Positions 4,780-16,009 of a DNA stretch of 64,000 bases are shown here, in pieces. The stretch is from Hyphomicrobiales bacterium (GTDB lineage: Bacteria > Pseudomonadota > Alphaproteobacteria > Rhizobiales > CAJQND01). Both the position numbers and the translations under genes were made by a program. The first letter of the stretch is position 1. Every line of letters begins with the position of its first letter. The notes under the pieces were generated by a model, which was not told where the DNA came from, did no database searches, and worked only from the letters and a program-made list of their open reading frames with translations. Where the stretch lies: NCBI GenBank assembly GCA_028285595.1, contig JANQOW010000045.1, positions 1 through 64,000 of the forward strand. The letters run 5' to 3'.

Positions 4780-6234
4780 TCAAGCTTGGGGCATGCGGTT
4801 CCAGGCATCCAGGGCGGCGATCTTATAGGCCTCCGCCAAGGTGGGGTAGTTGAATGTGTTCTCCACAAAGTAATCCAGCGTGCCTTGCAGGTTCAAAACC
4901 GCCTGGCCGATATGAATGAGCTCCGTCGCCCCTTCACCCACAATGTGGCAGCCCAGAAGCCGGCGGGTTTTGAGCGAGAACAGCATTTTCAGCATGCCCT
5001 TATCGAGCCCCATAATGTGGCCCCGGGAGGTCTCCCGAAAACGGGCAATGCCCACCTCGTAAGGAATGCCGCGCTCGTTCACCTCTTCCTCGCTCATGCC
5101 GACGGTGGAGATCTCCGGCACCGAGTAGATGCCATAGGGAAAGAACTCCGGCGGTGAATGCGCGCTCTCGCCCAGGGCATGGCAGGCGGCGATGCGCCCT
5201 TGCTCCATGGAGGTTGAAGCGAGCGAGGGAAAGCCGATCACATCACCGGCCGCGTAGATATGGTCCAGGTTCGTGCGGAAAGTGTCTGGGTCCACCTTCA
5301 AGCGGCCGCGATGGTCGCATTCAAGCCCGCAGGCTTCAAGATTGAGCGTGGTGGTGGCGCCCATGCGGCCGGCGGCGAAGAGCACCATATCGGAGCGCAC
5401 CGCCCGTCCGCCCTCAAGTTCGGTTACGCACCCGCCGCCCGGTTCACGCTCCACCTTGGTCACCGGCCGCCCGAAGCGCATCACCATGCCCCGGTCGCGG
5501 AGCTGATAGGTGAAGTCGCCGATCAGCTCGCGGTCCACAAAATCCAACATGCTCTCGCGCGGCTCCACCAGCGTCACATGCACATCCAGCGCACTGAAGA
5601 TGGTGGCGTATTCAATGCCGATCACGCCTGCGCCGATCACCGTCATGGAGCGCGGCAGGTGGCCGATCTCCAAGATCCCGTCGCTGTCGAAGATACGCTC
5701 TTCATCAAACGGAATGTAGTCCGGGCGGAACGGCACGGTGCCGACCGACAACAGGAAGCGATCGGCCGTGAACTGAAACGTCTCGCCCTCCTCGCCCACA
5801 ACGCTCAAGGTCTTGGCGTCCTCGAACCTCGCCTCACCGCGCAAGGTATCGACCTGGTTGCGGGCAAACTGATGCTCCAGAACCTCGATCTCGTGGCTCA
5901 AGGTGATGTGGAGGCGGGTGCGCAGATCATCGGCGGAAATATCCTGCTTCACTCTGTAGGAGCGTCCGTAAAAGCCACGCTCGCGCCAGCCGGAAAGATT
6001 GAGCGCGGTCTCGCGCAGGGTCTTGGAGGGAATGGTGCCCGTGTGCACCGAAACGCCCCCCACTCTGCGGCCCCGCTCAACCACCAAAACCTTGCGGCCG
6101 AATTTGGCCGCCTGAATGGCGGCACGGCGCCCGGCCGGTCCGCTGCCGACAATGATGAGATCATAATGGTCCACTCGCCCGCCCTCCCTCACAGTCCAGG
6201 GCCGACGGTAGGGCGCTTGGCGGGACCCGGTCAA
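4780..6234 (-). CDS. sthA: Si-specific (soluble) NAD(P)+ transhydrogenase
   Basis: YDLIIVGSGPAGRRAAIQAAKFGRKVLVVERG..GG.SVHTGTIPSKTLRE; the CxxxxC redox motif of related reductases is absent, as in SthA. C-terminal dimerisation domain present. Confidence 0.9.
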   Translation of the reverse strand: MTGSRQAPYRRPWTVREGGRVDHYDLIIVGSGPAGRRAAIQAAKFGRKVLVVERGRRVGGVSVHTGTIPSKTLRETALNLSGWRERGFYGRSYRVKQDISADDLRTRLHITLSHEIEVLEHQFARNQVDTLRGEARFEDAKTLSVVGEEGETFQFTADRFLLSVGTVPFRPDYIPFDEERIFDSDGILEIGHLPRSMTVIGAGVIGIEYATIFSALDVHVTLVEPRESMLDFVDRELIGDFTYQLRDRGMVMRFGRPVTKVEREPGGGCVTELEGGRAVRSDMVLFAAGRMGATTTLNLEACGLECDHRGRLKVDPDTFRTNLDHIYAAGDVIGFPSLASTSMEQGRIAACHALGESAHSPPEFFPYGIYSVPEISTVGMSEEEVNERGIPYEVGIARFRETSRGHIMGLDKGMLKMLFSLKTRRLLGCHIVGEGATELIHIGQAVLNLQGTLDYFVENTFNYPTLAEAYKIAALDAWNRMPQA

Positions 6235-6857
6235 GCCCAGCTGATATCTTCGCGCGAACTGGCGTCAAGCCAGGCCACGAAGGCCAGAAACGGTTCGTCT
6301 CCGGTGCGCGTGGCATGAACGACCGAGTGGTCGTGGAAGATGAGATCGCCCGGCTCCACATCAAACCAGTCACCATCTTCAAGCTTCCACCGGGCGCCGG
6401 GGGTCAAGATCAGATAGACCTCGCGCGGCGGATGGTAGTGGCCGGGATAGAGCAGATTGGGTGCCATCAGGAAGAAGCCGCTCATAGGAACAGCCCGCTT
6501 GATCGGCGCTTGCGGTCCGCACACAGTGGCGTAGGCATAGCCGTCAAGGAAATCCTGGTTCTTGGCCATCTCGGTATAGGCTCTGTTCTGGGTCCAGGTC
6601 AGCCGGTCGAGGCAGCCGGCAAAGTTGGCCGCCAGATGGGCCAGCGGGAAGTCCTGGGACAGCATCAGCGCTTCTTCCAAATAGCGCAGCACCGGCAGGT
6701 CATAACCGCCCGGCTCTGCTTCGCCGGCCTCGCCCCACATGGCGGTGGGAGGCAGATCAATCAGTCCACCGGTCAGCTTGTCTGCGCGCGCGCCCACGGC
6801 GGCCCAGGCCTGGTTGAACAGGGATTCAAGACTAGGGCTGTGCACAGGTTTACCCAC
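6231..6857 (-). CDS. Cupin protein of the DMSP-lyase (DddL/DddQ-like) type
   Basis: NLLYPGHYHPPREVYLILTPGARWKLEDGDWFDVEPGDLIFHDHSVVHATRTGDEPFLAFVAWLD: cupin motif 1 (HxHxxxExY) and a distal His. Overlaps sthA by 4 nt. Confidence 0.65.
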   Translation of the reverse strand: MGKPVHSPSLESLFNQAWAAVGARADKLTGGLIDLPPTAMWGEAGEAEPGGYDLPVLRYLEEALMLSQDFPLAHLAANFAGCLDRLTWTQNRAYTEMAKNQDFLDGYAYATVCGPQAPIKRAVPMSGFFLMAPNLLYPGHYHPPREVYLILTPGARWKLEDGDWFDVEPGDLIFHDHSVVHATRTGDEPFLAFVAWLDASSREDISWA

Positions 6858-7561: not shown

Positions 7562-8893
7562 TTACGGCAGTGCCATGGGTGCAAACTTGGTCCCGTCAAT
7601 CATGCGGGAATACCGGAAGGGTTCCGGATCCACAACCGGCGCCTTGCCGGTCACCAGGTCAGCGGTCAGTTTGCCCGCGCCGGGACCGATACCGAAGCCG
7701 TGACCGGAAAAGCCGGTGGACAGGAAGAAGCCGGGCAACTGATCCACCTCGGAAATCACCGGCACCACATCGGGCGTCACATCGATACACCCCGCCCAGC
7801 GCTCGGCCACTTTCATGTTTTGAAAGGCCGGGTAATTGCGTTTGATGCTGTCTTCCGATTCCTTGACCACCCAGTCTACCGGTTCTGGATCAAGCGTGCG
7901 CACCTTCTCAAACGGCGACACCTCATCCAGCTTCCAGGGCTTCGACAACGACCATTCGTCGAAGAAGCGTTTCGCAAAACGCAGCTTGATACTGTCCCAT
8001 TCGGTTTTGAGCGCGGGCATGAACTGGCGGAAGAAGCGGAAGTGGGCCGGGGTGAGGTCGGACACGCTCATTCCGCCGTGAGCAATGGTGTAACCGCCAT
8101 CGAGCCGTTTGCGGAAAGCGTATTTGTCTCCGCCCACGGAACGCTCCAGGCCGGCATCGAGCGGCTCGGTGCGAAACACCGAACTGATGGTCGTCAGTTG
8201 CGGCAGCACAATCCCCAGCCGGTCGCAGAAATGGCGCGACCAGGCTCCGCCGGCCAGCACCACGCTGCCGGCCTCAATCGAGCCCTTTTCGGTGACCACC
8301 GTGCTGACCCGTCCGGCCTTGGTCTCCAGTCCGCGCACAGCGCACTGGGTGAAGACCTTGCCTCCATGCGACCGCACCGCATTGGCGATGGCGGGCGCGG
8401 CCTTCTGGGGCTCACCGCGACCATCGGAGGGCGTGTAAAGCGCACCCGCCGGGGGAATGGCAGCGCCGGGCACCAACTCGGCCACTTCGTCTGCGCCAAT
8501 CATTCGGCTGTCCAACTGGTAGGGCCGTGCATACTCGTCCAGCCAGGTTTCGTTGCGCGCCAACTGGCGTTCGTCCTTACACAGGTAAAGAATACCGCAT
8601 TGCCGGAAGCCGGTCTCTGCCCCCACGCGCACATTCATGTTGCGCCACAGGCGCATGGATTCCACGATCAGCGGGATCTCGCGCACATCCCGGCCCATCT
8701 GCCGGCACCAGCCCCAATTGCGGCTCGATTGTTCGCCCGCAATCTGGCCCTTCTCCAGGAGCACAACATCAACACCGCGCTCGGCCAGCTCCAACGCGGT
8801 GGAAGCCCCGATAATGCCACCGCCGATCACCACCACGTCTGCGGACTTCGGCAATGTGAGATCGCTCTGGACGGGATCGGGGACTGGTGCCAT
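7562..8893 (-). CDS. FAD-dependent oxidoreductase, DAO/DadA family
   Basis: ADVVVIGGGIIGASTALELAERGVDVVLLEKGQIAGEQSSRNWGWCRQMGRD and C-terminal STGFSGHGFGIGPGAGKLTADLV. Confidence 0.88.
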   Translation of the reverse strand: MAPVPDPVQSDLTLPKSADVVVIGGGIIGASTALELAERGVDVVLLEKGQIAGEQSSRNWGWCRQMGRDVREIPLIVESMRLWRNMNVRVGAETGFRQCGILYLCKDERQLARNETWLDEYARPYQLDSRMIGADEVAELVPGAAIPPAGALYTPSDGRGEPQKAAPAIANAVRSHGGKVFTQCAVRGLETKAGRVSTVVTEKGSIEAGSVVLAGGAWSRHFCDRLGIVLPQLTTISSVFRTEPLDAGLERSVGGDKYAFRKRLDGGYTIAHGGMSVSDLTPAHFRFFRQFMPALKTEWDSIKLRFAKRFFDEWSLSKPWKLDEVSPFEKVRTLDPEPVDWVVKESEDSIKRNYPAFQNMKVAERWAGCIDVTPDVVPVISEVDQLPGFFLSTGFSGHGFGIGPGAGKLTADLVTGKAPVVDPEPFRYSRMIDGTKFAPMALP

Positions 8894-8990
8894 GGACGGG
8901 CCTCGTTGAAACAGTCACCTATTTGTGACCACACTCGTGCCGTAATCAGTAGCAAAGTGCAGCCGCAAAGAACATGGGAGACCACAAACT

Positions 8991-9491
8991 ATGAGAGCGC
9001 TAATCAGACGCATGTCCCGCACCCTCCTGGCCGGCCTGGCCGGGGCCGTCCTTTTCGCCTCTGCCGCACATGCCGATGTTATGGCGCCGGATGGCTGGGT
9101 GGTGTTGAAAACCTCCCATAAGTATTCCGATCTGATCGCCCGCGTCATGGATGCTGCGAAGGCCAACAAGATCGGTGTGGTCACGAAGGCATCGGCAACG
9201 GTTGGGGCCAAGAAGGTGCTCAAGCAGGATATTCCGGGCAACATGGTGGTGGGCCTCTACCATCCCCGTTTTGCGGTGCGCATGCTGGACGCCAGCATCG
9301 CGGCCGGCATCGAAGCTCCGATCCGGGTTTACCTCACGGAGAATGCCGACGGCACAGCCGATCTTTCCTACAAGACCCCCTCGATGGTGTTTGCGCCTTA
9401 TATGAAAGAGGGTGGCGACAAGCTCAAAGCACTGGCCGACGAACTGGACGCGCTGTTTGCCAAGCTGACGAAGGAAGCTGCGGGGAGTTAG
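8991..9491 (+). CDS. Periplasmic DUF302-domain protein
   Basis: Signal peptide then DGWVVLKTSHKYSDLIARVMDAAKANKIGVV..., ending in a PSMVFAPY-like DUF302 segment. Confidence 0.78.
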   Translation: MRALIRRMSRTLLAGLAGAVLFASAAHADVMAPDGWVVLKTSHKYSDLIARVMDAAKANKIGVVTKASATVGAKKVLKQDIPGNMVVGLYHPRFAVRMLDASIAAGIEAPIRVYLTENADGTADLSYKTPSMVFAPYMKEGGDKLKALADELDALFAKLTKEAAGS

Positions 9492-9500
9492 GCGTCTCAT

Positions 9501-9587
9501 CGTCATCCCCGCGGACCCAGGGGCTGGTGGCTTTGAGCGTGCTGCTCTGGGTCCCGGATATTTGCTGACGCAAATTCCGGGATGACG
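9501..9587. repeat. Dispersed palindromic intergenic repeat, copy 2 (inner hairpin partly deleted)
   Basis: cgtcatccccgcggacccaggggctggtggctttgagcgtgctgctctgggtcccggatatttgctgacgcaaattccgggatgacg. Confidence 0.88.
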
Positions 9588-9638
9588 TAAAGGGTGAAGC
9601 TGAAGCCCTCCCCCTAATCGTCATCCCCGCCCCCTCAT

Positions 9639-9733
9639 CGTCATCCCCGCGAATGCGGGGACCCAGGGGCCGGTGGCTTTGAGCGTGCTGCTCTGGGTCC
9701 TGGATATTTGCTGACGCAAATTCCGGGATGACG
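9639..9733. repeat. Dispersed palindromic intergenic repeat, copy 3
   Basis: Same element as copy 2 with the full cgcgaatgcgggg hairpin; flanked by a truncated head cgtcatccccgcc. Confidence 0.88.
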
Positions 9734-9784
9734 TAAAGGGTAAAGCTGAAGCCCGCCTCCTAATCGTCATCCCCGCCTCCTCAT

Positions 9785-9879
9785 CGTCATCCCCGCGAAT
9801 GCGGGGACCCAGGGGCTGATTGCTGTGAGCGTGCTGCTCTGGGTCCCGGATATTTGCTGACGCAAGTTCCGGGATGACG
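9785..9879. repeat. Dispersed palindromic intergenic repeat, copy 4
   Basis: Same element; copies 3 and 4 are offset by 146 bp including shared spacer taaaggGT(g/a)aagctgaagccc..cctaatcgtcatccccgcc. Confidence 0.88.
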
Positions 9880-9893
9880 GCGTTGTTGCCCCC

Positions 9894-11024
9894 TCACACC
9901 ATCCCAAGCGCGCGGGCCACAAGCTTCTGGAAGTGATGCACCGCATGCTCGCTGATGGCTGAGCGCTCGCCGTCCACCATGAACCGCCCCTGGTGATAGC
10001 CGAGCGAGTGCAGACCCTTCTGCACATCTTCCACCAAGGACACATCCTCCGGCCCCAGAACATCCTGGAAGTAGTCCAACGCCCGCGCGGCGGTGTCGGT
10101 GATCTCGCCCCCCGCGCCGTGATAGGCAAACACCTGATGGGTCATCTCCGGAGCCGTGGGCAAGAAGGAGAAGGTGGCAATCCCGCCTGTTCCCGGAAAC
10201 TGCGCGAACGCCACCGCGGGCCACAGATAAAGCGTCGTGTTGGAGGTCACCGCACTGGCCGCGTCAAACTCATACGCCGTATTGCTGGAGCGGCACTCGC
10301 CCCATTGGATCGACCAATTGTCATAGGTCTCCACGGTGTACGTGGGCATCTCCACCAAGTCCACAAACGCCTTGTGGGCGGTTGAGCAATGGTAGCACTC
10401 CAACAGATTGTCCCCCACATTCTTCCAGTTGCCCTTGATGTCGAAGACAATCTCCCGCGCGGTGCCAAGCTCGGGCGCGTCAGGACAATGCTCAAGCAAG
10501 CGCGCTTCGGCCCCGGGATAGACCTCGCTCATGGGCCGGGCCTCCGGGTCCAGATTGACAAAGACAAATCCGGCGAACATCTCCACCCGCACCTCGGGCA
10601 GCGAGAACGAGCCCTTGTCGAAGTTCTTCACATGCTCGCAATTGGGCGCCGCCTTCAGCGCACCGTCATGGTCATAACTCCAGGAATGATAAGGACACAC
10701 CAGCAGGTTCCGCGCCGTGCCCTTGCCGCGCAAGAGAGAATGGCCCCGGTGCTGGCACACATTGAAGAAGGCCTTCAGGTCTCCGCTGCGCGTGCGGATC
10801 ACATAAATGCGCTGGTCAAGGATCTCCGCGGTCACGTATTGGCCGGGCTCCTTCACCTCTGAAAGATGAGCCACATAGATCCAGGATTTCAGAAAGATCG
10901 CATCGCGCTCTTCACGCAGCGTCTCCGGCTCATGGTACATCCAGGCAGGAAGCGTATAGGAGCGGCCTGCGTCACCATCGAACATATCAGCAGAAGGGTC
11001 CGGGCGCTTGTAGATCTGATCCAT
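9894..11024 (-). CDS. Rieske [2Fe-2S] non-heme iron oxygenase, alpha subunit (quaternary-amine-oxygenase-like)
   Basis: Rieske ligands CQHRGHSLL..CPYHSWSY; mononuclear iron site NWKNVGDNLLECYHCSTAH. Start MDQIYKRP at 11024 with gggagga upstream. Confidence 0.93.
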   Translation of the reverse strand: MDQIYKRPDPSADMFDGDAGRSYTLPAWMYHEPETLREERDAIFLKSWIYVAHLSEVKEPGQYVTAEILDQRIYVIRTRSGDLKAFFNVCQHRGHSLLRGKGTARNLLVCPYHSWSYDHDGALKAAPNCEHVKNFDKGSFSLPEVRVEMFAGFVFVNLDPEARPMSEVYPGAEARLLEHCPDAPELGTAREIVFDIKGNWKNVGDNLLECYHCSTAHKAFVDLVEMPTYTVETYDNWSIQWGECRSSNTAYEFDAASAVTSNTTLYLWPAVAFAQFPGTGGIATFSFLPTAPEMTHQVFAYHGAGGEITDTAARALDYFQDVLGPEDVSLVEDVQKGLHSLGYHQGRFMVDGERSAISEHAVHHFQKLVARALGMV

Positions 11025-11100
11025 GGCGGATCTCCTCCCAAAGACGGTCAGCACCCGAAAGTATAGCGGAAATCCGGCTGCTGTGCACGGCTCCGGAGCC

Positions 11101-11116
11101 ATATCAATTCTGATAT
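11101..11116. promoter_or_regulatory. Perfect dyad in divergent promoter region
   Basis: ATATCA-attc-TGATAT between divergent starts at 11024 (-) and 11200 (+). Confidence 0.45.
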
Positions 11117-11199
11117 CACCCTCTTGCTCAAATAGCAGTGTACATGGCGGTCCCCGTCCCGCAATATCCTGCCAGAAACGTCAGATAAGGACTGTTCCG

Positions 11200-12036
11200 A
11201 TGAGCGCGTATGTGAAGCCGGCCCATTGGTCCAACCCAAAGAACAAGCTGTTCAAGTACCAGGTGGGCTTCACCAGCCCGCCGCATGACTTCGACGCGGC
11301 CCCGTCCGACTTCCTGCGCATGTGCCCTGAACATGTGGGGGCGCACGGGCGCATGCTGCATGTACCCGATTACGAGCACCGGCTGGACCAGCGCAAACAG
11401 AACTTCGATCTTTTGGAGGAGTTCGTGGAATGCATGGCCAACAACGGGGCCGATGTGTGCGGCCAGGTGGGCTCCAACTGGGTGCACGCCTCAGGCCTCG
11501 GCGTGGAGGGCGTACGCCGGCACTGCGAGATGCTGAGCGAGAAGTATCAAACGCCGTTTCACATGGCCGGCTATGCCATGGTGGAGGCGTTGCGTGACCA
11601 GAACGTGGAGAAGGTGGCCCTCAACGGCGCCTATCACTATCCCGATTGGTGGCAGGGCACGGCCGGCTTCCTGAAAGAGGCCGGGTTCGATGTGCTCTGG
11701 GCCGGAAACTTCCACGACCAGGGCTGGTTCGCCAGCCAGGAAGAGCTAAACGCCTGCATCTGGTGTTTCGACGGAGACCTGGCGGAGAAGAGCTTTGCCT
11801 ATGTAGCCGACAAGGCTCCCAATGCGGACGCTTACCTGATCAACGGCATGTGCAACTTCAGGCGTGCAAGCGATGGGCTGGCCCAGCGCCCAGTGCATCT
11901 GGAAGTCAAACTGGAGGCCATGCTCGGCAAGCCCATCATCAGCCATGACAACGCCCTTTACTGGCGCATCTTCAAAACCCTTGAGCTCGCCCCGCTCACC
12001 CAGCAGGGTCAGCTCTTGTCCTCACTCAAAGGCTAA
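11200..12036 (+). CDS. Asp/Glu racemase superfamily protein (maleate isomerase / arylmalonate decarboxylase-like)
   Basis: Two spaced Cys regions ADVCGQVGSNWVHASG and ADAYLINGMCNFRRASDG, then LEAMLGKPIISHDNALYWRIFKTL, which resembles the maleate isomerase C-terminal signature. Confidence 0.68.
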   Translation: MSAYVKPAHWSNPKNKLFKYQVGFTSPPHDFDAAPSDFLRMCPEHVGAHGRMLHVPDYEHRLDQRKQNFDLLEEFVECMANNGADVCGQVGSNWVHASGLGVEGVRRHCEMLSEKYQTPFHMAGYAMVEALRDQNVEKVALNGAYHYPDWWQGTAGFLKEAGFDVLWAGNFHDQGWFASQEELNACIWCFDGDLAEKSFAYVADKAPNADAYLINGMCNFRRASDGLAQRPVHLEVKLEAMLGKPIISHDNALYWRIFKTLELAPLTQQGQLLSSLKG

Positions 12037-12040
12037 CTTC

Positions 12041-12796
12041 ATGCACAAGATCCTTGCGCTCTGGGCGGTACCGCGCTCAACCTCCACCGCGTTCGAATGG
12101 ATGATGCGCCAGCGCGGCGATATGGACTGTTTCCATGAGCCCTTCGGTGAAGCCTGGTACCAGGGCGAGACCCCGCTCTGGCCCCGGTTTGAGGAGGGCG
12201 GCGTGCGCACCCCCGGCCTGACGTTGGAAAGCGTATGGGAAACGCTCCAAGCTGCGGCCCGCAAAGGTCCGGTCTTTTCCAAAGACTTCCCGCTTTATAT
12301 TGATCACATGTGGACCGATGCGTTTCTGGACAACTTCACCCACAGTTTCCTGATCCGCGATCCGGCCAAGACCATCACCTCGATGTATGCCAGGTGGCCT
12401 GACTTCCATGAAAAAGAACTGGGCTTTCCCGAACAGCGCGAGCTGTTCGACCTGTTGGCCGAGAAAACCGGCCAGGCGCCTCCCGTGCTGGACAGTGATG
12501 ATCTTTTGGAAGACCCCCACGGAATGGTCGAGGTTTGGTGCGAGGCGGTGGGCATCCCTTTCCTGCCGGAAGCCCTTAGCTGGGAGCCTGGCGCGCGCGA
12601 TGAGGTGAGCTGGTGGGACGGCGGTTCGTTCCACGCAAATCTGCGCAACTCCGATGGCCTCAAACCGCAGAAGCGCAAGTATATCGACATTGCCCAAGCC
12701 CCCGACCGGGTGAAGGAAATCCATGAACGGATGCTCCCGCACTACGAACACCTTCACAGCCACCGGCTACAGAACAAAGGACAACGCGCCGCATGA
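12041..12796 (+). CDS. PAPS-dependent sulfotransferase-like protein
   Basis: 5'-phosphosulfate-loop-like [19 protein letters not shown] and 3'-phosphate-region-like [22 protein letters not shown]; lies directly before an APS kinase. Confidence 0.78.
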
Positions 12797-13440
12797 CCAG
12801 CTCATCCGACACCGCCGCCTCCCCCTTGCCTCAGCAGTCCAGCAATGTGGAATGGCACGGGATGAAGATCGACAAGACCTTGCGGGCCACCTCCAACGGT
12901 CAAAAGCCGTGCGTCTTGTGGTTCACCGGCCTTTCAGGCGCGGGCAAATCCACCATCGCCGACAAGCTGGAACAAAAGCTCTATCAGGCGGGCAAGCGCA
13001 CCTATCTCCTGGACGGCGATAATGTGCGCCATGGTCTGAACCGGGACTTGGGCTTTTCCGACGACGACCGGGTGGAGAACATCCGCCGCATCGCGGAGAT
13101 GTCCAGACTGTTCGTGGATGCAGGACTGATCGTCCTGGTCTCGTTCATCTCGCCCTTCCGGGCCGAGCGCGAGATGGCGCGCGCTTTGATGGAAGACGGC
13201 GAGTTCATCGAGATCTATGTGGACACGCCGCTCACCGTGTGTGAGGAGCGCGACCCCAAAGGGCTCTACAAGAAGGCGCGGGCCGGCGAGATCAAGCAGT
13301 TCACCGGCATCGATTCAGCCTACGAGCCGCCACAAGACCCTGAAGTGGTTCTGAAGGCAGACCGGCACGGACCGGATGAACTGGCCGATCAGATCATCGG
13401 GTTCCTGGAAGAGCGCAGCTACATGATGCAATGGCGGTAG
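12793..13440 (+). CDS. cysC: Adenylylsulfate (APS) kinase
   Basis: [23 protein letters not shown]-loop, [55 protein letters not shown] overlap with the sulfotransferase gene. Confidence 0.97.
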
Positions 13441-13449
13441 TCACCGGCC

Positions 13450-15234
13450 TCACTCGGCAGCCGGTGCCATCTCTTCAGGTGGCGCGACCACCACGCGGTT
13501 GCGCCCGGCTTCCTTGGCCTTATAGAGCGCCTGATCAGCCCGGTTGAGCGCCTTCTCGTAGCGTTTGTCTCGTTGGTCGGTTTGTGTGACGCCAATGCTC
13601 ACCGTCACATCGATGGTTGGGTTGCCCGAACAGAATTGGTGCCCCTCCACCGCCTCGCGCAAGCGTTCTGCGGTGGAGAAGCCACCGCCCATGCTGGTCT
13701 CCGGCAAGAACGCCGCGAACTCTTCACCGCCATACCGGCACACCACGTCGGGCGTTCTGAGCACGTCGGAGAGGATCTCCGCCAGCTCTTTCAGCACCAC
13801 ATCTCCCGTGAGGTGCCCGAACGTGTCGTTGATGGTCTTGAAGTGATCCACATCGATCAGGAGCACGCTCATCGTCCCGCCATAGCGGCGCACGCGCTCA
13901 TGCTCCTGAGCAATCCGGTCCATAAAGGCCCGGCGGTTTGAGAGCCCGGTTAAGGCATCGGTGATCGAAAGACGTTCCAGCTCATGCTCGCGCCGTTTGG
14001 CCTCGGTAATGTCCACCCGGATGCCAACCGTGCCCCCATCTTTGGTCTTGCGCTCTTCAATGCGCAGCCACCGGCCATTATCCAGGCGCTGTTCAATGGG
14101 ATCGCCAGGGTTTTGATGGGCCTCGAGGCGCTTCTCGATCCACGCCTCTTCCCGGTCGGTTGCTTCGGGATATTGACCGCACGCCACCCCGCCTCTGATG
14201 ACTTCCTCAAAGGTGACCCCCGGTGCCATCAGATGAGCGCTCTTTGTGTACATGGAGCGATACTGTTCGTTGAAGACCCTCAGCCGATCCTCGTTGTCGT
14301 AATAGGCAAAGCCGTCAGGCATCGCGTTGATGGCATCATTGAGGCGCCCCTCGGAGGCTTTGAGCTCCTGCTCGATGCGACGCCGGCCGGACACATCGAT
14401 GACGAGCGCCACCAGTCCATGCACCTCACCCTCGTCGTCTATGTCGGGGACATAGGAGATTTCGACATATCTGGTCACCCCGTCCGGGTAGGTGACTTCT
14501 GCGTGCCGTCGAACCTTTTCGCCGCGCAGGGCTTGCGAGATCCAGGGCTCGATCTTGATCGCGGTGTCCAGGCCCAGCACCTCTTTGTAGCTGAGACCAA
14601 TAAGCTCCTCGCGCGTGCTGTTGTACCAGGCTTCAGCGGTGCGATTGACGAACCGGAGCGTGCCGTCCGCGCTGAGATAGTTGACCAATTCCGGCAGCGA
14701 GTTTGCAATCAGGTGAAGCAAGCTCTCGTTTGCCGCCACTTCCTTGTGGCTTTGCTCGCGCTGGGTCACGTCGCGGATCGCGCCCAGATACCCCAGCAGA
14801 TCGCCCCGGCTGTCGCGCAGGGGCGTGCCAATGGTCTCGCCGGTAAACACCTCGCCGCTCTTGCGACGGTATTGAACCTGATAGGGCGCGAGCTGTTCCT
14901 CAGCGCTCAGATTGAACCGCTCCTTGCCCCGAACCTCGAACTCCTCAAGGCTTTCGTACAGCATCGCGGTATTCTGACCGACCAACTCTTCGGTGCGATA
15001 TCCAAACAAACTGGTAACACCCGGATTGGAGATCCGGATCGACCGCTCCTTGTCGGCGATCATCAATCCATCAGGCAGGCTGTTGAACACGCTCATGAAG
15101 AGCTCGTTGTTCCTGCGTTGGGCGTTAAGTTCTGTTTGGAGCCGCTCGTTCTCTTTCAGCAGCGACAGGACCAGAGCGGCTTGCTCGCTCTCCTCCTCGT
15201 CGCGCTCGGCATCTTCGACGAGCTTAAGCTTCAT
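13450..15234 (-). CDS. Multi-PAS sensor diguanylate cyclase
   Basis: Several PAS/PAC segments, then LSITDALTGLSNRRAF...RYGGEEFAAFLPET (GGEEF). Start at MKLKLVEDAERDEEE. Confidence 0.92.
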   Translation of the reverse strand: MKLKLVEDAERDEEESEQAALVLSLLKENERLQTELNAQRRNNELFMSVFNSLPDGLMIADKERSIRISNPGVTSLFGYRTEELVGQNTAMLYESLEEFEVRGKERFNLSAEEQLAPYQVQYRRKSGEVFTGETIGTPLRDSRGDLLGYLGAIRDVTQREQSHKEVAANESLLHLIANSLPELVNYLSADGTLRFVNRTAEAWYNSTREELIGLSYKEVLGLDTAIKIEPWISQALRGEKVRRHAEVTYPDGVTRYVEISYVPDIDDEGEVHGLVALVIDVSGRRRIEQELKASEGRLNDAINAMPDGFAYYDNEDRLRVFNEQYRSMYTKSAHLMAPGVTFEEVIRGGVACGQYPEATDREEAWIEKRLEAHQNPGDPIEQRLDNGRWLRIEERKTKDGGTVGIRVDITEAKRREHELERLSITDALTGLSNRRAFMDRIAQEHERVRRYGGTMSVLLIDVDHFKTINDTFGHLTGDVVLKELAEILSDVLRTPDVVCRYGGEEFAAFLPETSMGGGFSTAERLREAVEGHQFCSGNPTIDVTVSIGVTQTDQRDKRYEKALNRADQALYKAKEAGRNRVVVAPPEEMAPAAE

Positions 15235-15414
15235 TCTGGACCTCCCAGCAACACCCCGGAAGCGCGCGGCTTGCACGCCTCATGGCAAACTCAAAATCGG
15301 TGGTGGGAAGACTTCATGCTCTCTAAAGCGCACGTCATGTGCACCTGAGCCCGCCAGAAGACGACGTTACCTTGGATCGGTAAACCAAACGTGTCTGCAA
15401 AGGCGGATAAAACG

Positions 15415-15512
15415 GTCACGGAGGCGCGCAGCCCATAGGACTGACATAGGCCGAGCGGCGCCTCCGCAACCTTCGTCATGGTCAGTCGTGTGGGGCAGGC
15501 CTGACCATGGGT
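15415..15512. repeat. Two consecutive perfect inverted repeats downstream of the fasciclin gene
   Basis: CGGAGGCGC (15419-15427) with GCGCCTCCG (15458-15466); CATGGTCAG (15477-15485) with CTGACCATG (15501-15509). Confidence 0.6.
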
Positions 15513-15523
15513 GTTGGCAGGGA

Positions 15524-16009
15524 TTAGCTGCCCGGCAGGATCACTTTGTCGATCACGTGGATCACGCCGTTGTCTGCAGCAACATCAGCTTGGGTCACCT
15601 TGGCTTCGTTGATGGTCACACCGGAGGTTGCATCGATCTTCACTTCGCTGCCTTCCACGGTTTTGACCGACATCATCTTGCCTGCGATGTCGCTGGACAT
15701 CACCTTGCCCGGGATCACGTGATAGGTCAGCACCTGCACGAGCTTGTCTTTGTTTTCGGGCTTCAGCAGATCTTCCACCGTGCCGGCGGGCAGAGCTTTG
15801 AACGCTTCATCGGTCGGCGCGAAAACGGTGAACGGACCATCGCCCTTCAACGTGTCGACCAGGCCCGCAGCCTTCACGGCGGCAACCAATGTGCCGAAGG
15901 AGCCGGCGCCCATGGCCGTGTCGACAATGTCTTTAGCTTGTACGGCTGCTGCGCTGAGGGTCATTGCGGCGGCGGTTGCGGTCGTCAGAACCAGTTTACG
16001 AAAGTTCAT
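15524..16009 (-). CDS. Secreted fasciclin (FAS1) domain protein
   Basis: [47 protein letters not shown] and [13 protein letters not shown]. Confidence 0.95.

Follow-up and report, generated by a model that had tools for sequence, protein, structure and literature searches.

Gene Organization of the Locus

The window, i.e., the whole stretch of DNA that was analyzed, comprises 64,000 nt of a Hyphomicrobiales bacterium (GTDB lineage Bacteria; Pseudomonadota; Alphaproteobacteria; Rhizobiales; CAJQND01) and corresponds to positions 1–64,000 (forward strand) of contig JANQOW010000045.1 in assembly GCA_028285595.1. It contains a Rieske oxygenase gene diverging from three tightly packed genes (Table 1), which code for an Asp/Glu-racemase-fold protein (AMD), a sulfotransferase (ST), and the APS kinase CysC; the adjacent gene pair is referred to as AMD-ST. 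The ORF coordinates confirm this layout as given in the preliminary description, with 4 bp between the AMD stop and the ST start at 12041 and the CysC start at 12793 lying inside the ST stop (ATGA overlap). Although the longest ORF of the Rieske gene extends to 11102, translation more likely begins at 11024 (MDQIYK). Promoter and terminator scans of the locus, including the 175-bp intergenic region, gave matches no better than chance. It was also confirmed that neither an ATP sulfurylase nor a PAPS reductase gene adjoins cysC at this locus. The cysC gene is probably cotranscribed with AMD-ST in the window, supplying PAPS.

Table 1. Features of the divergent locus in the window.
Feature	Position	Strand	Basis
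CntA-like (group V-like) Rieske oxygenase, divergent from operon	9894..11024	-	Pfam Rieske and Ring_hydroxyl_A
Divergent intergenic region, 175 bp, presumed promoters for both sides	11025..11199	.	Sequence
AMD-like protein, Gly at both catalytic-Cys positions (G91, G216)	11200..12036	+	AlphaFold2 model, fold matches, census of 66 proteins
PAPS-type sulfotransferase ST (Sulfotransfer_5)	12041..12796	+	Pfam, PAPS residues, model, fold matches
CysC, adenylyl-sulfate (APS) kinase, PAPS-making	12793..13440	+	Pfam APS_kinase and NCBIfam models

Conservation of the AMD-ST Pair

In a first search of 150 relatives, AMD homologues were found in 9 genomes, with ST adjoining in nearly all of them. A scan of GTDB contigs with the AMD alignment yielded 320 coding stretches; the 80 best of these were retrieved together with up to 10 kb of flanking DNA. 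As these loci were chosen by AMD similarity, the partner frequencies describe the AMD family and not genomes at large. Genes in the other loci were called by a simple codon-usage caller, and some names of neighbor clusters were assigned by eye.

An AMD gene followed by ST on one strand was detected by tblastn in 89 of 93 loci, mostly in marine Proteobacteria, and the gaps between the two genes are mostly 0–40 bp long. The carriers, named by their record titles, include Roseobacters, SAR116, and Acidiferrobacteraceae. The four exceptions to this order are two loci with divergent homologues (L026 and L029), L087, and L092 with ST upstream. Therefore, the unit is the pair and not a four-gene set, and AMD-ST is best read as a conserved two-gene metabolic module. 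Of the four-gene module proposed in the preliminary description, the AMD-ST pair and a recurrent same-strand APS kinase were recovered in other genomes far more often than chance would give, whereas the divergence of this particular Rieske gene from AMD does not recur.

No relevant description of AMD-like enzymes joined with sulfotransferases or APS kinase was found in the open-access literature, which is weak evidence of absence, and a search of the same literature for choline-sulfate synthesis by bacterial sulfotransferases returned nothing on the pair.

A second AMD-ST pair of the window's genome (L025, G000:C55, 5985–9132; 60% identity) is accompanied by an FMO-like monooxygenase, a LysR, and an MmgE/PrpD-like gene. 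A search of plasmids returned only distant Planktothrix homologues of AMD (~25% identity) within an NRPS/PKS cluster, flanked by two phytanoyl-CoA dioxygenase genes (L111, 11911–12777; L112, 11911–12903).

The Sulfotransferase

The window ST belongs to Sulfotransfer_5 (Pfam, 58 bits). Its description as sulfotransferase-like is borne out, as both the PAPS-binding residues and the fold are kept. Among 49 sequences, the PRSTST 5′-phosphosulfate loop is near invariant (P11, R12, and T14–T16 invariant, S13 in at least 90%), and the 3′-phosphate-binding residues comprise an invariant R106 and an S114 present in at least 90%. With the structural model (pLDDT 91.8), 28 of 29 PDB matches at E ≤ 0.001 were PAPS sulfotransferases, the TM-scores being modest (~0.4–0.54). 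Residues and model together suggest that ST is PAPS-dependent.

Among solved sulfotransferases, CurM was the only one found by the ST profile (E 0.007). The sulfotransferase domains of CurM and the olefin synthases (Ols) sulfate their substrates ahead of a decarboxylative elimination. They have the PAPS sulfotransferase fold in common with the window ST, for which 4gox gave the top TM-score among the listed matches (0.54), but the latter is a stand-alone enzyme of 251 aa and not a PKS domain, and its partner is AMD-like and not a thioesterase. CurM/Ols do not rank above human sulfotransferases by the E-value of the fold match.

APS Kinase and the Supply of PAPS

The window CysC scores above all curated cut-offs (Pfam APS_kinase, PF01583, 244.8 bits; PRK03846, 303.7; TIGR00455, 278). 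Within the fetched DNA, APS kinase genes were identified in 15 of these AMD-ST loci, on the same strand in all 15. One or two APS kinases are estimated per 4–5 Mb genome; on this estimate of our own, fewer than one would be expected by chance in the 1.5 Mb examined. The linkage requires at least 11 changes on the AMD tree and is therefore not one inherited arrangement. Its architectures comprise stand-alone enzymes (L036), CysN-type tails (L019, L037, L052), and Sat fusions (L053, L065, L069). In addition, an inositol-monophosphatase-family gene of the CysQ type (PAP phosphatase) was found in four AMD-ST loci.

A separate sat/cysC set is present, as a second APS kinase, fused to Sat, was found on contig 60 of the window's genome, so that the window CysC is not the sole copy. 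In that region, another Rieske oxygenase gene is followed by an MFS-like transporter gene and the Sat-CysC fusion (L030, G000:C60, 5195–9269). The genome has a sulfite reductase, and no match to PF01507 (CysH/CysD) was detected anywhere in it. Its cysI and DUF934 genes overlap by 14 bases (L118, G000:C97, 5326–7808), and in three relatives (L121–L123) cysH (PF01507) sits between the two. Because of this overlap, an assembly gap does not account for the loss of cysH at this position, and without cysH the PAPS of this genome cannot be reduced. Loss of cysH as a general trait of the carriers was rejected, since several others keep PF01507; the loss is confined to part of the carriers.

It could be argued that the window CysC is part of assimilatory sulfate reduction and was placed here by accident, as APS kinase is a normal component of assimilation and the nearest AMD (L031) has no CysC beside it. 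This is very improbable in view of the clean absence of cysH, the Sat-CysC copy elsewhere in the genome, and the recurrence of APS kinase genes linked to AMD-ST on the same strand. Together with the PAPS residues and fold of ST, these observations support the earlier proposal that the window CysC would serve sulfuryl transfer rather than assimilation. The genome encodes about a dozen further sulfotransferases, and PAPS therefore need not serve the window ST alone; the proposed dedication stands for sulfuryl transfer over assimilation but not for exclusiveness to this ST.

The AMD-Like Protein

The window AMD reaches 23.9 bits against Pfam Amdase, slightly under the cut-off of 25.9. Its AlphaFold2 model (pLDDT 95.5) matches 4ix1, AMDase, and maleate isomerase, the nearest structure being the uncharacterized 4ix1. 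For the alignment, the published AMDase motifs were used, i.e., Gly74, Cys188, and the dioxyanion hole formed by T75, S76, Y126, and G189 (PMC4996985). Gly74 corresponds to G91 and Cys188 to G216, and Gly occupies both catalytic-Cys positions in all 66 AMD-like proteins compared. In the dioxyanion hole, S/T92 and Y145 are kept, while S76 is replaced by Asn93 and G189 by Met217. W150, W188, W255, and Y145 are invariant in the 66 proteins. AMD thus shares with AMDase and maleate isomerase the fold, Gly74, the Pro-Pro of motif 1, and the dioxyanion-hole Tyr, but differs in the proton donor Cys188, which is Gly throughout, and in the absence of the racemase/isomerase Cys pair.

With Gly at both Cys positions, AMD is therefore not a racemase, and it is not a standard decarboxylase either. 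Filing it as either was rejected, and the isomerase/decarboxylase chemistry proposed in the preliminary description does not apply in its known form. Judged from the alignment, AMD appears to keep much of the carboxylate site without the proton-donor thiol. The invariant tryptophans may, as a guess, form a cation cage.

The loss of the Cys residues and the CurM/Ols-like ST give a hint that the sulfate ester is a leaving group rather than an end product. In that case ST would sulfate a beta-hydroxyl, and AMD would eliminate the sulfate with or without decarboxylation, leaving an unsaturated acid or an alkene to be catabolized. Such an elimination would account for the strict AMD-ST pairing and for the replacement of Cys188 in all 66 proteins while the equivalents of G74 and Y126 are invariant, and it agrees with the presence of CurM and olefin-synthase domains among the closest folds to ST and with the catabolic neighbors of the pair. 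It is nevertheless unlikely, as the AMD-like proteins have Asn in place of the dioxyanion-hole residue S76, the ST fold is by E-value no nearer to CurM/Ols than to the human enzymes, and no base or concerted mechanism was identified.

The Rieske Oxygenase of the Window

The window Rieske oxygenase was identified by Pfam (Rieske, 80 bits; Ring_hydroxyl_A, 69). Its best solved relative is the carnitine monooxygenase CntA (6y8j, E 2.5e-90, 39% identity over 354 columns). According to the alignment, it keeps the Rieske CxH/CxxH ligands, the Fe triad His-His-Asp, and the bridging Glu205 of CntA and the group V enzymes. It differs from CntA in Y203, which is replaced by Leu207, and in most other pocket residues (258, 270, 295, 315, and 319), and a CntB-type reductase gene was not seen beside it.

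This subfamily occurs in 3 of about 88 loci, beyond the window only in L022 and L032; the closest AMD (L031, 86% identical to the window AMD) has no such gene next to it. The case for this enzyme as a fixed member of the module, as initially suggested, is thus weak. It is plausible that it belongs to the AMD-ST pathway, where it would oxidize a related amine.

Quaternary-Ammonium Genes around AMD-ST

The neighbor clusters around AMD-ST encode CntA-like Rieske oxygenases (32 loci), enolase-superfamily proteins (31), RpiR regulators (29), and MDR alcohol dehydrogenases (29). They are followed by LysR (27), DAO-GcvT (27), FrhB-like (22), and CMD (18) proteins, ProV (17, with OpuAC and permease), ALDH (14), and DMSP-lyase-like cupins (11). 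The FrhB-like proteins are iron-sulfur flavoproteins (e.g., L069, 2602–3837). A Pfam/NCBIfam check of neighbor representatives additionally gave BCCT, OpuAC, MTTB, choline kinase, and choline-sulfatase (L022).

The residues Y203/E205 are the signature of quaternary-amine Rieske oxygenases (PMC7948474). In 31 of 32 Rieske neighbors (RieskeB), this signature was found as NYSECYHC, with an aromatic residue at 203. The enolase-superfamily neighbors are very close to 2rdx and 3eez, both deposited without function, and are related to hydroxyproline dehydratases and betaine epimerases. The idea of an N-methyl or betaine-type substrate fits these neighborhoods with their CntA-type Rieske, DAO-GcvT, and ProXWV/BCCT genes. 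Rieske, DAO, enolase-superfamily, and betaine transporter genes are grouped in the same way in HpbD-type hydroxyproline-betaine/proline-betaine clusters; to our knowledge, no sulfotransferase, AMD-like, or APS kinase gene occurs in the known clusters of this type.

On balance, AMD-ST seems to carry out a PAPS-dependent sulfation within betaine-type metabolism, a reading to which we give a slight preference. A small hydroxylated quaternary-ammonium metabolite (betaine-, carnitine-, or choline-like) would be taken up from seawater, and its hydroxyl would be sulfated by ST with PAPS that, in many carriers including the window, a local APS kinase or PAPS synthase may supply. AMD would act on the same molecule, binding the carboxylated substrate or product with a chemistry that dispenses with the Cys pair of its superfamily. 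A hydroxylated quaternary amine is thus presumably the substrate common to both enzymes. Against this reading stand the modest TM-scores of ST and its single profile match to CurM. Moreover, some carriers have FMO or PhyH contexts without quaternary-ammonium neighbors (L025, L028), no amine transporter gene adjoins the locus in the window, the window Rieske lacks the signature tyrosine, and the other sulfotransferases of the genome could consume the PAPS.

Alternatively, AMD-ST might make a stable sulfate ester, i.e., a choline-O-sulfate-like osmolyte or sulfur store. A choline-sulfatase gene (TIGR03417, 710 bits against a cut-off of 433) lies 1.2 kb from ST in L022, and L075 contains a choline-kinase-like gene. 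The sulfatase was found in one locus only, though, most neighbors are demethylation and oxidation genes, and the AMD-like protein would be left without an obvious role, which makes a stable ester as doubtful as the leaving group. The L022 locus (8617–15806) combines AMD-ST, an AraC regulator, the choline-sulfatase, a window-type Rieske, and a carnitine-dehydrogenase-like gene.

AMD-ST sits in clusters for betaine-type nutrients, which feed the carbon, nitrogen, and sulfur cycling of the ocean. Marine genomes with the pair number in the hundreds (one scan gave 320 coding stretches) and include culturable hosts, e.g., Ruegeria, and the expenditure of PAPS within a catabolic cluster is unusual. 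The combination of AMD-ST, APS kinase, and betaine-type genes suggests that betaine-like compounds are used by way of a sulfation step that is so far undescribed.

The Roseobacter dddQ Cluster and DMSP-Lyase-Like Cupins

In the Roseobacter loci (L102, L104, L106, L108, and others), AMD-ST is found together with a CntA-type Rieske, DAO-GcvT, and two to three enolase-superfamily genes. In R. pomeroyi and R. nubinhibens, dddQ is reported to be linked with an MDR-type dehydrogenase gene (PMC3338564). Since the MDR gene and a DddQ-type cupin gene stand in the same place, the gene content of R. pomeroyi relatives identifies the Roseobacter AMD-ST locus as the dddQ cluster (R. pomeroyi SPO1593–SPO1596 region). 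The dddQ cluster would be a larger betaine-type locus. The published passages on the cluster treat it as one for DMSP cleavage and make no mention of an AMD-ST pair (PMC3338564). DddQ-type cupins have a Km for DMSP in the millimolar range (PMC5395565), and the link to AMD-ST bears on their natural role and substrate.

If sulfate were indeed the leaving group, a new catabolic strategy might be at hand, in which one PAPS is spent on converting a hydroxyl to the sulfate ester. A Cys-less lyase of the Asp/Glu-racemase fold would then remove the sulfate, with or without loss of CO2, from a betaine-type acid, so that marine bacteria could degrade algal quaternary-ammonium compounds by means of the dddQ-holding cluster. 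This combined proposal is improbable, and marginally more so than the elimination as such.

The DAO gene (7562–8893) and a cupin gene (6231–6857, minus strand) of the window were not counted as parts of the module, because they share ~34% identity or less with the Roseobacter families. The cupin, located ~3 kb from the module, belongs to the DMSP-lyase family (PF16867, 120.9 bits), and its nearest solved relatives are DMSP lyases of low identity.
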